A stretch of DNA of 64,000 nucleotides from Buchnera aphidicola (Aphis craccivora) (GTDB lineage Bacteria > Pseudomonadota > Gammaproteobacteria > Enterobacterales > Enterobacteriaceae). The translations under genes and the position numbers were made by a program. The stretch lies in contig NZ_CP034897.1 of assembly GCF_005082145.1 (NCBI RefSeq), forward strand, positions 186,001 to 250,000, in the 5' to 3' direction. A model generated the notes under the pieces. It did not search any database. It saw nothing but the letters and a program-made list of their open reading frames with translations, and was not told the DNA's origin. This document shows positions 46,597 through 55,327 of the stretch, piece by piece; position 1 is the first letter of the stretch; each line of letters opens with the position of its first letter.

Positions 46597-46951
46597 TATT
46601 TCTTAGCCTGTACTATATTTTAAATTATTGCTTTCATTGTAAATCAGGATTTATGATATTTTATGTTATAGTTGTTTGACATCAACAATATTTTTAAAAT
46701 TGTTTATTTAGACAGAAATAAGTTTTTAAAAATTTAATTTTTTTAAAAATTTTTTATATAATATTTCATGATCTTTCTTAAAAAAATAAATTTATTAAAA
46801 TATAGAAATATTATTAAATAATATTTTTATTTTTCATAAGTAATAAAATGTGTTTATTTTTAATAAATTTATTTAGTAATAATAAAAGTTTGATTTTAAA
46901 ATACTTTAGCATTTATAATATATTTTAAATTATAATATGAATAATTTTTTA
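46597..46951. other. 355-bp non-coding gap at the ftsQ position
   Basis: Between ddlB and ftsA, where enterobacteria carry ftsQ. I find no FtsQ-like reading frame on the minus strand in any frame, only short AT-rich fragments and a small palindrome near 46810-46830. A candidate ftsA promoter is at 46658-46685. It is best read as the eroded remains of ftsQ. Confidence 0.6.
46658..46685 (-). promoter_or_regulatory. Possible promoter of ftsA-ftsZ
   Basis: On the minus strand: TTGATG (46685-46680), a 16-bp spacer and TAAAAT (46663-46658), about 62 bp before the ftsA start. Four or five of six bases match each sigma70 box. It lies in the gap left by ftsQ. Confidence 0.35.
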
Positions 46952-50414: not shown

Positions 50415-51577
50415 TTAATTTTCCTTAGGTAGGGCTTGGTTTTCGCTTAACCTTAGTTCAAAATCAATTCGCAATAAAATACAAATAGCCATTAAATTAA
50501 TAATTAAACTTGAACCTCCATAACTAATTAACGGCAAAGTTAATCCTTTAGTTGGTAATATACCAGTAACAGCTCCAATATTAATTAAAGTTTGAAAACT
50601 AAACCATAAACCAATGGAACAAGCTAAAAAACCAGAAAAAATTTGTTTTTTTTCTAAAGATTTTTGTCCAATATACATAGCTCGAAAAGAAATTAAGAAA
50701 ATAGTTAACAATATTAAGAAACAACCTATATATCCCAATTCTTCTCCTATAATAGAAAATATAAAATCACTATGTGCTTCTGGTAAATAATTTAGTTTTT
50801 GTATTGAATTTCCTAATCCTTGTCCAAAAAAATGACCTCTTCCTAAAGCAATTAACGATTGTGTCAATTGATATCCGTTGCCAAATGGATCTTTCCAAGG
50901 ATTCCAAAACGATAATATTCTATTCATACGATATGGTTTTATTAATATTAAAAATATTACCATTAATAATGCTAATAAAATAATTGAAAAAAATTGTTTT
51001 ATTTTTGCACCGGAAAGAAATAAAACTGATAAAACAGTAAGAAATAAAACAACAACTGTTCCTAAATCAGGCTCTGCTAATAAAAGGATCGATTGAATAG
51101 TAATAATACCCATGGGCTTGAAAAATCCCCAAAAGTTATTATGTACTTCTTTGATTTTTCTAGAAAGGTAATTAGATATATAAAGAAAAGAAGAAATTTT
51201 GCATATTTCAGCAGGTTGTATATGTAATATACCTATACTTATCCATCTATAAGATCCATGTACTGATTTTCCTATTAATAATACAAAAATAAGCAATAAT
51301 ACTGAAAATATTAGTATAATATTACTATATTCTTTCCAAGAAATCACAGGTATACGTAAAAAAACAAAAGATAATAAAAATATTAAAATAAAATAAAATA
51401 TTTCTCTTTTTGCAAAAAAAAAGGGATCTTTGTACAAACTTTGTCCTATAGGTATAGATGTAGATATCACCATTATTAATCCGGTAACACATAAAGCTAA
51501 AGTTAACCATACTAGTAGTCTGTCATATAATATGATATATTTTTTTTTACTTTTTTTTATTTTTTTTTTAAAAACAT
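50415..51577 (-). CDS. ftsW: Septal peptidoglycan polymerase FtsW (start frameshifted at a poly(A) tract)
   Basis: SEDS-family membrane glycosyltransferase working with FtsI at the septum. Core motifs: [35 protein letters not shown]. The first ATG in this frame (51473) would remove the first membrane helix. Yet the frame stays open upstream and encodes [20 protein letters not shown], which aligns with E. coli [20 protein letters not shown], so it is coding. It has no start codon of its own; an ATG at 51577, overlapping the murD stop, is separated from it by an A10 tract (51560-51569) and becomes in frame with one extra A, giving 387 residues. I infer transcriptional slippage. Confidence 0.88.
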
Positions 51578-52899
51578 TAACTTATTTCCTTTGATAATGT
51601 TATAAAAAGATCACCTCTTTCTTCAAAGTTTTTAAATTGATCTTTACTACTACATCCTGGAGATAACAGCACTACATCACCTGATATTGCTTCTTTAGAA
51701 ATTAAAGTTATAGCTTGTTTTAAATCTTCAACATAAATAGATTTTTTTTGACATATTTTTGCTATATTTGCACCATCTTTTCCAAAACAATATACTTTAA
51801 TTTTTAATTTTTCTAAATAATTTTTTAGAACATTAAAATCAGCAGATTTTTTATCCCCTCCTAATAATAATCTTATTGTTCCTTGAATATTAATATTTTC
51901 TAAAGCAGCTTTAGTACTATTAACATTTGTAGATTTTGAATCGTTAATCCAAGATATATTATTGCGTTTATGTATTATTTGAAATCGGTGTGGTAAATTT
52001 AAAAAACTACTAAGTACTATTTTAGTTTTTTCCCGAGGAAAATTCATAGCATCTGAAATTGCTAATGATACTAAAGCATTTTCATAGCTTTGATATCCGT
52101 ATAGTGATGTTTTCGATATATCAAGTATTTTTTCTTTTTTACAATACAAAAAAACATTACCTTCAATATTATCAATATAATAATCACTATCTTTTGTTCC
52201 AAAAGTAATATATTTTTTATGTTGATTCTTTAAATGAAAAATTTTTTCTTTCAAATTTACTAAGCATATTTCTGAATTTTTATAAATAGATAATTTTATT
52301 TTTTTATATTGCTGAAATCCTTTTGGGTATCTATCTAAATGATCTTCGTTAATATTAAGTACTACAGCTATTTTTGATTTTAAGCTAAATATATTTTCTA
52401 GTTGAAAACTAGATAGTTCTAGTATATATAAATCAGTTTTTTTTTCTAACATTTCTAATGCTGGAAATCCAATATTTCCTCCTAAATGCACTTTATATCC
52501 TGATTTTTTTGCAATTTTTTTAACCATTGTAGCTACGGTGCTTTTTCCATTAGTTCCTGTAATAGAAATAATTGGAGATTTTGCTTCTCTACAAAATAGC
52601 TCAATGTCACTAATTATTTCAATACCCAATGTCCGAGCTTGTATTAAAATAGGTTTAAAAGAAGATATTCCAGGACTAATAATAATTAAATCTGATTCTA
52701 AAATCCATGTTTTTTCTAAATATCCTACTTTATATTGAACAACTTTAGGAATTTTATTTAAATAATAAGGTTTTTTAGATTCATCAATTATTTTAGGAAT
52801 TATTCCTCTTTTTAAAAAAAAACGCATACAAGATATACCAGTTAAACCTAAACCTAAAATTAATATTTTTTTCTTTGAATACTTCTTATACGGCATCAT
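51577..52899 (-). CDS. murD: UDP-N-acetylmuramoylalanine--D-glutamate ligase
   Basis: Adds D-Glu to UDP-MurNAc-L-Ala. The protein has 440 residues (E. coli 438). Nucleotide fold [20 protein letters not shown] loop [74 protein letters not shown]. Its first 14 bp overlap the end of mraY, and its stop overlaps the proposed ftsW start (TAATG). Confidence 0.97.
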
Positions 52900-53962
52900 G
52901 TATCCTTAAAGATATAATTCCTAATAATAATAATATAAACGATATTATCCAAAATCTAATAGTAATTAAAGGTTCTGATAATCCTTTTATTTCGTAATGA
53001 TGGTGAATCGGGGCCATTTTGAATATTCTTTTTTTTCTAATTTTAAAGTAGATTATTTGTAATATTACAGACATAGTTTCAAAAACAAAAACACCACCCA
53101 TTATTAACAATAATAACTCTTGATGTAGCAATATAGATATTATTCCTAATGCACCGCCTAGTGATAAAGATCCAACATCTCCCATAAATATTTTAGCTGG
53201 ATAAGTATTAAACCATAAAAATCCTAATCCAGAACCAACAATTGCTCCACATAATACGCTTAATTCATTTGCTTTTTCTGAATAAGAAATATTTATATAA
53301 CTAGACAAATTAATATCAGAACTAAAATAAGCAATTAAACCAAATCCAAATGATAAAAGAATTACTGGCATAATCGCTAATCCATCTAATCCATCTGTTA
53401 AATTCACTCCATTACTTGTACCTACAATAACAAAGTAAGAGAAAAATACATAAAAATAATTTATTTTTACAGGTATAGAAGTGTAAAAAGGAATTATTAG
53501 TTCAATAGAAATATTATTATTTTTTTCAGAATACATTATATAAATAATGAATATAGCAATTATTGACAACAAAAAAAATTTATATGATATTTTTAATCCA
53601 GTTGAATTATTAAATTTAATTTTTTTATAATCATCTAATAACCCAATTAAGCCGTATCCTAATATAATCGCAAGAACGTACCAAATATATATATTATTTA
53701 AATCACAATAAAGAAAAGTAGATATGCATATTGAAATAATGATAAATACTCCTCCCATAGTAGGAGTATTATTTTTATCAAAATGTTTAATAGGTCCATC
53801 AGTTCTTATAACTTGAAATTTTTGTAATTTTTTAAAATAAGATATAATATATGGTCCAATAAATAAATTAATAAAAAATGATGTTAATAAACTAAATATT
53901 ATTCGAAAAGAAATAAAAGTAAATGTTTTAAAATTCAAGTATTTATTAATTAAAAATATCAT
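52886..53962 (-). CDS. mraY: Phospho-N-acetylmuramoyl-pentapeptide transferase
   Basis: Integral membrane enzyme that makes lipid I from UDP-MurNAc-pentapeptide and undecaprenyl phosphate. The protein has 358 residues (E. coli 360) and about ten membrane helices. Catalytic motifs: GLLDDYKK, NLTDGLDGLAI, FNTYPAKIFMGDVGSL, and the cytoplasmic MAPIHHHYEIKG. It overlaps the end of murF by 17 bp and the start of murD by 14 bp, an unusually tight junction in this otherwise loosely packed genome. Confidence 0.97.
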   Translation of the reverse strand: MIFLINKYLNFKTFTFISFRIIFSLLTSFFINLFIGPYIISYFKKLQKFQVIRTDGPIKHFDKNNTPTMGGVFIIISICISTFLYCDLNNIYIWYVLAIILGYGLIGLLDDYKKIKFNNSTGLKISYKFFLLSIIAIFIIYIMYSEKNNNISIELIIPFYTSIPVKINYFYVFFSYFVIVGTSNGVNLTDGLDGLAIMPVILLSFGFGLIAYFSSDINLSSYINISYSEKANELSVLCGAIVGSGLGFLWFNTYPAKIFMGDVGSLSLGGALGIISILLHQELLLLIMGGVFVFETMSVILQIIYFKIRKKRIFKMAPIHHHYEIKGLSEPLITIRFWIISFILLLLGIISLRIHDAV

Positions 53963-55327
53963 TTTTTTTATACTCTTTTATTAAATATTCTATGATTTTT
54001 TCCATTTTCATATGACGTGAACCTTTAATTAAAATTGTACTTTTGTTTTGTTTTAACATTGTTTCTTTTAATTTTTTAGTTAACATATTTTTATGTTTTT
54101 CTGAAAAATGTTTTCCATTTTTACAGATTTTAAAAATTTCGTTACTATATTTTCCAAAAGTAAAAATATAATCAATATTTGATACATTAGCAATATTTCC
54201 TATGATTTTATGGTATAAAATACTTTTTTCACCTAATTCTGCCATATCTCCTATGACTAATATTTTATAACCTGGCATTTTTTCTAAAATTTTAATTGCT
54301 ATAATCATAGAAGCAACGTTCGAGTTATATGTATCATTAATTAAAATTGTATTTTTATTTAATTGAATAGGTTCTAATCGTCCAGGTATAATAGGAGATT
54401 TTAATAGTCCAATTTGAATTTGTTTTAGTGGTGTATGAATAGAAAATGCAAGAGCACTAGCAGCTAAGGCATTAGATATACTTTGATAACCCAAATAAGG
54501 TAATACAATATTTATTGTACCAGATGGTGTATGCATAATAAAACATGTTTGATTTGCATAAATTTTAATATTAGTAGCAAAAAAATCACTTTCTTTTTTT
54601 TTTTAACAGAAAAATAAAATATTTTTTTATTTTGAATTTTTTTTCTCCATTGCGATAAATGATGACTGTCTAAATTAATAATAACTGTGCCTTTATTTTT
54701 TAAACAAGATAATATTTCTGATTTTTCTTTTGATATTCCCAATAATGATTTGAATCCTTCCAAATGTGAATAATAAATATTATTTATTAGCGCAATATTT
54801 GGTTGAGCAATTTTTGAAATATAATGGATTTCACCTGGATTATTGGATCCTAACTCAATTATCCCATATTTATCTATTTTTTTTAACTTTAATAAAGTAA
54901 TAGGGACTCCTATGTGATTATTTTCATTGTTCGTAGTATATATGATATTATGTTTTTTTTTCAGTATAGAAGCAGTCATTTCTTTTACTGAAGTTTTCCC
55001 GCAAGATCCAGTGATAGCTAATATTTTTGGGTCAATTATATTACGAAGCCAAGCAGCAATTTGTCCTAAAGCAATAGTAGTATCTTCAACTATAACATAA
55101 GAAATACAAGATATTATTTGTCTATCAGCTATTATTGCTGAACATCCATTTTTTATAGCTTCTTTGATAAAAGAATGTGCATCAAACTTTTTACCCTTTA
55201 ACGCAATAAACAAGCTATTTGGTACTATATTTTTAGTATTAGTGATAATATTATCTATTATAATGTTTTTTCCAAATAACAAACCATTTGTAATACTTGC
55301 AATTTTTTTTAACGAAATAGGAATCAT
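53946..55327 (-). CDS. murF: UDP-MurNAc-tripeptide--D-Ala-D-Ala ligase (frameshifted at a poly(A) tract)
   Basis: Adds D-Ala-D-Ala to complete the pentapeptide. As sequenced it is split: the first part (55327 to 54512) carries the N-terminal domain and ATP loop GSCGKTSVKEM, then goes out of frame after V241 at an A11 tract (54594-54604). The correct frame resumes at once (ESDFFATNIKIYANQTCF, then MHTPSG) and runs to 53946 with GRLEPIQLNKN, NDTYNSNVASM, VIGDMAELG and ILIKGSRHM. One extra A gives 460 residues (E. coli 452). The break is inside the ATPase domain, so two separate pieces should not work; both parts are otherwise undamaged, pointing to slippage or a sequencing error. Confidence 0.92.

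Follow-up and report, generated by a model that had tools for sequence, protein, structure and literature searches.

A poly(A) frameshift at the start of ftsW in Buchnera of Aphis craccivora and its relatives, probably old and rescued by RNA polymerase slippage

The window, a stretch of 64,000 nucleotides from the chromosome of Buchnera aphidicola of Aphis craccivora, carries on its minus strand a cluster of cell-wall and cell-division genes in the order rsmH, ftsI, murE, murF, mraY, murD, ftsW, murG, murC, ddlB, ftsA and ftsZ (gene names other than ftsW and murF were read off the sequences). In E. coli, ftsQ is located between ddlB and ftsA; in the corresponding interval of the window (46597-46951) we found no minus-strand ORF of at least 90 aa, nor any of 80 codons. 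The frame that follows murD (Table 1) matches the NCBIfam model PRK10774 with 581.7 bits (cut-off 493) and the model TIGR02614 with 425.9 bits (cut-off 337.5), its residues 20-375 covering positions 1-356 of the 357 of the latter. With scores above the curated cut-offs over nearly the whole model, the frame is, judged by its sequence, that of the SEDS glycosyltransferase FtsW. Seven PDB sequences were also matched, four RodA proteins aligning from residue 17, two FtsW proteins from residue 26 and one MrdB from residue 38.

Table 1. Features of the murD-ftsW junction, in positions of the window.
Feature	Position	Strand	Remarks
murD	51577..52899	-	440-aa ORF; stop TAA 51579-51577 overlaps the ftsW ATG
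Shine-Dalgarno AAGGA	51587..51591	-	9 nt upstream of the ATG; conserved in relatives
Proposed ftsW start ATG, out of frame with FtsW	51575..51577	-	same place in 14/14 clade genomes
A10 tract, one A short	51560..51569	-	sequence read; relatives compared
TAA closing the 6-codon ATG frame	51557..51559	-	sequence read
FtsW reading frame, stop to stop	50415..51581	-	388 codons; NCBIfam FtsW models; FtsW and RodA of PDB
First in-frame start codon, inside helix 1	51471..51473	-	rejected as sole start

The earliest ATG, GTG or TTG in the FtsW frame is the ATG at 51473, which corresponds to residue 37 and lies within transmembrane helix 1; a start at this codon would lose about 17 positions of the TIGR02614 model. 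The sole ftsW start with a Shine-Dalgarno site is the ATG at 51577, which overlaps the murD stop as TAATG. It is followed by five T (51574-51570), the A10 tract and a TAA, and its frame comprises six codons (MFLKKK) before this stop because the tract is one A short. The preliminary description of this DNA had claimed that the FtsW frame lacks a usable upstream start, that the lone ATG at the murD stop meets a TAA after six codons, and that an A11 tract would lead from this ATG into an FtsW of 387 aa; reading the junction and counting the codons on the sequence with one A added bear this out. Runs of this kind are common on the chromosome (among its A or T runs, 72 have a length of exactly 10 and 380 a length of exactly 9), and the arrangement at ftsW is taken to be more than chance because the same arrangement occurs in 15 of 35 related genomes.

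These relatives were found by whole-genome searches in 36 genomes of the genus, an initial scan of contigs having given a single Bacteroidales locus only. All of them except G025 have a match to ftsW, and the murD-ftsW junction was read in each of the 35. ftsW is out of frame in 15 of these, and 13 of the 15 fall into one clade of 14 genomes (SH-aLRT 100 in a quick LG+G4 tree of six proteins with midpoint rooting), which, from the species names assigned to the genomes, probably corresponds to the tribe Aphidini. The ATG overlaps the murD stop in all 14 members, including G024, in which the tract is A12 and ftsW is in frame. Outside this clade, 19 of 21 genomes have an in-frame ftsW start, located at -1 to +4 of the murD stop in 16 of the 21 and further down in G028, G003 and G007; the two others, G004 and G019, lose the frame at A9 tracts. 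G005 has an in-frame start but an inner break around residues 56-86, where the overlap contains T9, T10 and T7 runs. The fewest changes between in-frame and out-of-frame states on the tree number four, or five if direction is counted, and parsimony leaves either +1 or in frame as the root state; an in-frame ancestry is suggested by the widespread occurrence of the in-frame start. The frameshift is best explained as old in the clade around A. craccivora Buchnera. The split between Aphidini and Macrosiphini was fixed at 65 MYA in PMC3164680.

The comparison of tract lengths among relatives, a check named beforehand, came out in favour of the preliminary description: in all 15 out-of-frame genomes an A9-A11 tract lies upstream of the out-of-frame stop, and a one-base change in such a tract opens an ORF from the ATG into FtsW, as expected from the claim that a one-base correction is needed there. 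This count does not represent 15 independent trials, because the genomes share history. The same 15 genomes keep a Shine-Dalgarno site exactly 9 nt before the ATG, AAGGA in 14 and AGGGA in one. AAGGA stands at this distance in 15 of the 16 genomes examined (the 14 clade genomes, among them the in-frame G024, and G004), the exception being G019 with AGGGA; its background rate within murD is 2.5% of 22-nt windows. AAG makes up 107 of the 1809 lysine codons of murD, yet all 14 clade genomes use it for the lysine codon that contributes to the site. Of the 13 out-of-frame clade genomes, 10 share a single phase, with 44, 41, 35 or 29 nt from the ATG to the ILYDR motif; the remaining three form one sub-clade that shares another phase.

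Local alignment finds a run of at least nine A at the position of the ftsW tract in 10 of 13 relatives, and in 13 of 13 both at the murF and at the murC break. Eleven other coding runs of at least nine A in the cluster are kept in 55 of 143 cases by hand count (the control comprised 16 runs, 3 at break sites and these 11, with one run outside the coding intervals and a second ftsW run omitted). Direct reading shows that all 13 relatives have at least nine A in the stretch from the ATG to its stop or, in the in-frame G024, within the ORF.

Homopolymers are error-prone in some sequencing technologies, and the break could in principle be an error of sequencing or assembly in the tract. We reject this explanation as extremely improbable: 15 assemblies are out of frame, and their tract lengths vary by lineage. 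The same observation weakens the possibility that the genome really reads A11. In addition, both PacBio and Illumina reads were used to polish the genome of R. maidis Buchnera (PMC6451198), which G008 is presumed to represent.

Helix 1 appears to be used as protein. In the 13 out-of-frame clade genomes, pS was 0.377 and pN 0.080 (raw ratio 0.21) for the first 22 codons of the FtsW frame counted from ILYDR, and 0.397 and 0.110 (raw ratio 0.28) for the next 90 ftsW codons, in comparisons that are ungapped and made of non-independent pairs; the two wrong frames gave raw ratios of 0.41 and 2.5 over the helix 1 codons. Helix 1 of FtsW is thus, by these substitution ratios, under purifying selection in the 13 genomes; being constrained, it is presumably translated, and this excludes the internal ATG at 51473 as the sole start, the other outcome that would have spoken against the preliminary description. 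It also bears on the idea of a neutral break, in a gene on its way to loss or translated without helix 1 from the internal ATG. Peptidoglycan genes have been reported as lost in other aphid subfamilies (PMC9116674), and the genome without an ftsW match would fit such a loss. In the 13 out-of-frame genomes, however, the helix 1 codons are constrained and the frame is otherwise open, and the FtsW model itself begins in helix 1, which makes either form of this idea quite improbable.

Translation could also begin at a non-AUG codon, ATT or ATC, that immediately precedes helix 1 in the FtsW frame, a type of start for which infC is a precedent. One of these two codons does stand before ILYDR in 12 of the 13 clade genomes that are out of frame, the exception being G031 with TTT. 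Moreover, the Shine-Dalgarno site kept in 15 of 15 genomes is placed 9 nt from the ATG and not from this codon, and a downstream start would not require the single ATG-ILYDR phase seen in 10 of 13. We consider such a start distinctly unlikely.

The change that mends the frame is +1 in 12 of the 15 out-of-frame genomes and -1 in G032, G016 and G029. The corrected site could also lie beside the tract, since a T run directly precedes it in 8 of 15 genomes and A8 runs occur in G022 and G031. A predominance of +1 would be equally produced if ribosomes that started at the ATG slipped back by one base, on U UUA AAA or A AAA AAA, into the FtsW frame, the mRNA remaining unchanged. Such heptamers are present in the ATG frame of the tract, and the direction could mend 12 of the 15 ftsW breaks as well as 55 of 59 other breaks in the cluster (see below). 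Programmed -1 frameshifting would nevertheless call for breaks that can always be mended by -1, which holds for 12 of 15, whereas G032, G016 and G029 need the opposite direction; furthermore, the RNA fold after the tract is unexceptional in the A. craccivora sequence, the only one folded (z 0.48, with 133 of 200 shuffles folding as well). We regard ribosomal -1 frameshifting as unlikely.

The reading that we favour, and consider probable, is that an old poly(A) frameshift in ftsW is rescued by RNA polymerase slippage. Ribosomes would start ftsW at the ATG led by the Shine-Dalgarno site, and faithful mRNAs, with a tract one A short, would give the 6-residue peptide only, a leader product for which we know of no use. 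Slipping of the polymerase on the A9-A11 tract would add one A to a fraction of the mRNAs, and these would encode full-length FtsW; in three relatives, this role would fall to mRNAs that lost one A or gained two. The frameshift would be tolerated because slippage supplies enough FtsW, and selection would keep the tract, the Shine-Dalgarno site, the ATG and the protein. We infer slippage at the ftsW tract, its full-length product and any effect on dosage from the junctions compared here, and the idea of the preliminary description that slippage frequency sets the dosage of FtsW is a hypothesis.

Published work documents slippage of the Buchnera RNA polymerase on A/T runs (PMC5574713). Of 157 insertions made during transcription, 151 were located in homopolymers, and insertions became exponentially more frequent as runs lengthened, up to 11; of deletions, 16 of 57 were in homopolymers (the paper also gives 70 deletions in all). 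It weighs against slippage at ftsW that a deletion or a +2 change is needed in three genomes, both being rarer in the published Buchnera spectrum, that at least nine A are aligned at the ftsW tract in just 10 of 13 relatives, and that T runs or A8 runs could be the corrected site.

Frame breaks are found elsewhere in the cluster. The 35 clusters contain 60 rows of collinear frame splits, of which 59 were counted, one unsound murF row with a negative overlap (G019) being left out. They affect murF in 29 genomes, murC in 10, murE in 8, ddlB in 7, murD in 2, and mraY, ftsI and the inner part of ftsW in one each; ftsA, ftsZ, murG and rsmH have zero splits in the 35 clusters. A +1 change is needed in 55 of the 59 and a -1 change in 4, counted by genome and not by independent event. 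This excess fits the excess of A/T insertions by the Buchnera RNA polymerase and is equally compatible with ribosomal -1 slips or with a deletion bias of replication; it can be compared with polymerase error spectra. In A. craccivora Buchnera, murF (53946-55327, minus strand) is split near an A11 run at 54594-54604, its two pieces matching residues 1-250 and 265-447 of the model PRK10773. According to PMC3164680, murF is intact in Buchnera of A. pisum Tokyo and broken in those of A. kondoi, U. ambrosiae and S. graminum, murE and mraY of the latter being likewise broken. Our splits agree with this report on murF, murE and mraY, and G001 (presumed S. graminum Buchnera) has a further split in murC.

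Across the chromosome of A. craccivora Buchnera, 506 genes have a match among A. pisum reference ORFs, and 9 of these genes are split. Seven of the split genes are murF, glmM, folC, signal peptidase I, lgt, nadD and sucB, and two were given no name by the tool. Apart from murF, these named genes are split near A/T runs of 8-11, at chromosome positions near 416761 (glmM), 332138 (sucB), 178598 (folC), 282484 (signal peptidase I), 473722 (lgt) and 482105 (nadD). Between 1 and 18 homopolymeric frameshifts per genome have been reported (PMC3164680), and ftsW is therefore one of a usual number. A screen for late starts flagged 42 of 492 genes, in many cases owing to a reference start placed too early, and eight were looked at. 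In four genes, near chromosome positions 585161, 165466, 337294 and 357078, the first in-frame start comes 28-49 residues late and A runs lie close by; we take these genes to be pyrE, nuoE, a DNA-binding gene of HU/IHF type and tsaB. The screen also caught prfB, which carries a known programmed frameshift.

The breaks in the mur genes bear on a published puzzle. In PMC9116674, frameshifted coding sequences were removed before genes were scored, and Aphidini Buchnera were scored without murC, murE and/or murF; R. maidis Buchnera builds a wall all the same. The main text of that paper contains neither of the words 'slippage' and 'homopolymer', nor did we find ftsW mentioned in this main text. 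In G008, the presumed R. maidis Buchnera, the three genes are near complete, with one break of the +1 type each and A10 in the overlap: the pieces cover 1-169 and 161-495 of 497 for murE, 1-250 and 225-457 of 459 for murF, and 2-87 and 87-472 of 472 for murC. Compared with G010, these pieces have dN/dS values of 0.14-0.22, similar to the 0.18 of the unbroken murG and the 0.23 of murD, and the three genes are thus still under constraint. The 14 comparisons of murE, murF and murC with G010, G001 and G024 range over 0.14-0.46, the maximum being that of the murE N-terminal piece with G024, and some involving the murF C-terminal piece hold 2-3 stops that are taken to lie before the break. From their sequences, murC, murE and murF of G008 look frameshifted rather than lost. 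G008 also has a break in murD, close to residue 27 at T8/A7; slippage accounts for this break less readily.

One could go further and suppose that in Aphidini Buchnera a large share of peptidoglycan synthesis, through murF, murC, murE and FtsW, depends on RNA polymerase slippage at conserved one-A-short tracts, tract length acting as an inherited volume control of the wall. We put this forward as a tentative and rather doubtful proposal; if true, slippage dependence would explain the wall of R. maidis Buchnera scored without murC, murE and murF. Our literature search did not find a frameshifted Buchnera ftsW, which may be listed in Tamas et al. (2008), Wernegreen et al. (2010) or Chong (2019). 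The ftsW and mur breaks make the R. maidis puzzle testable.

Among known systems, programmed -1 ribosomal frameshifting of the dnaX type takes place on A-rich sites. ftsW resembles it in its A-rich slippery site and in the one-base change of frame, and differs in that the fold is not unusual (in the one sequence considered) and the direction varies among relatives. The closer parallel is the type described by Tamas et al. (2008), as cited in PMC5009743, PMC3164680 and PMC3017870, in which poly(A) frameshifts of Buchnera and Blochmannia are rescued by transcriptional slippage. As in the cases cited, which include Buchnera cell-wall genes, the ftsW frame is broken by one base at a long poly(A) tract, the gene appears otherwise intact, selection past the break is purifying and the break persists across species. 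Unlike in these cases, the corrected ftsW transcripts and protein are deduced, and the break lies directly after the start codon, where an internal start chosen in annotation can conceal it; ftsW would thereby add to the symbiont poly(A) frameshifts a cell-division gene affected clade-wide. Species of Blochmannia also share frameshifts that appear to have been kept together with their slippery tract (Wernegreen et al., 2010, as cited in PMC3017870), in another symbiont and another gene, whereas the ftsW break is found in 13 of the 14 genomes of its clade.
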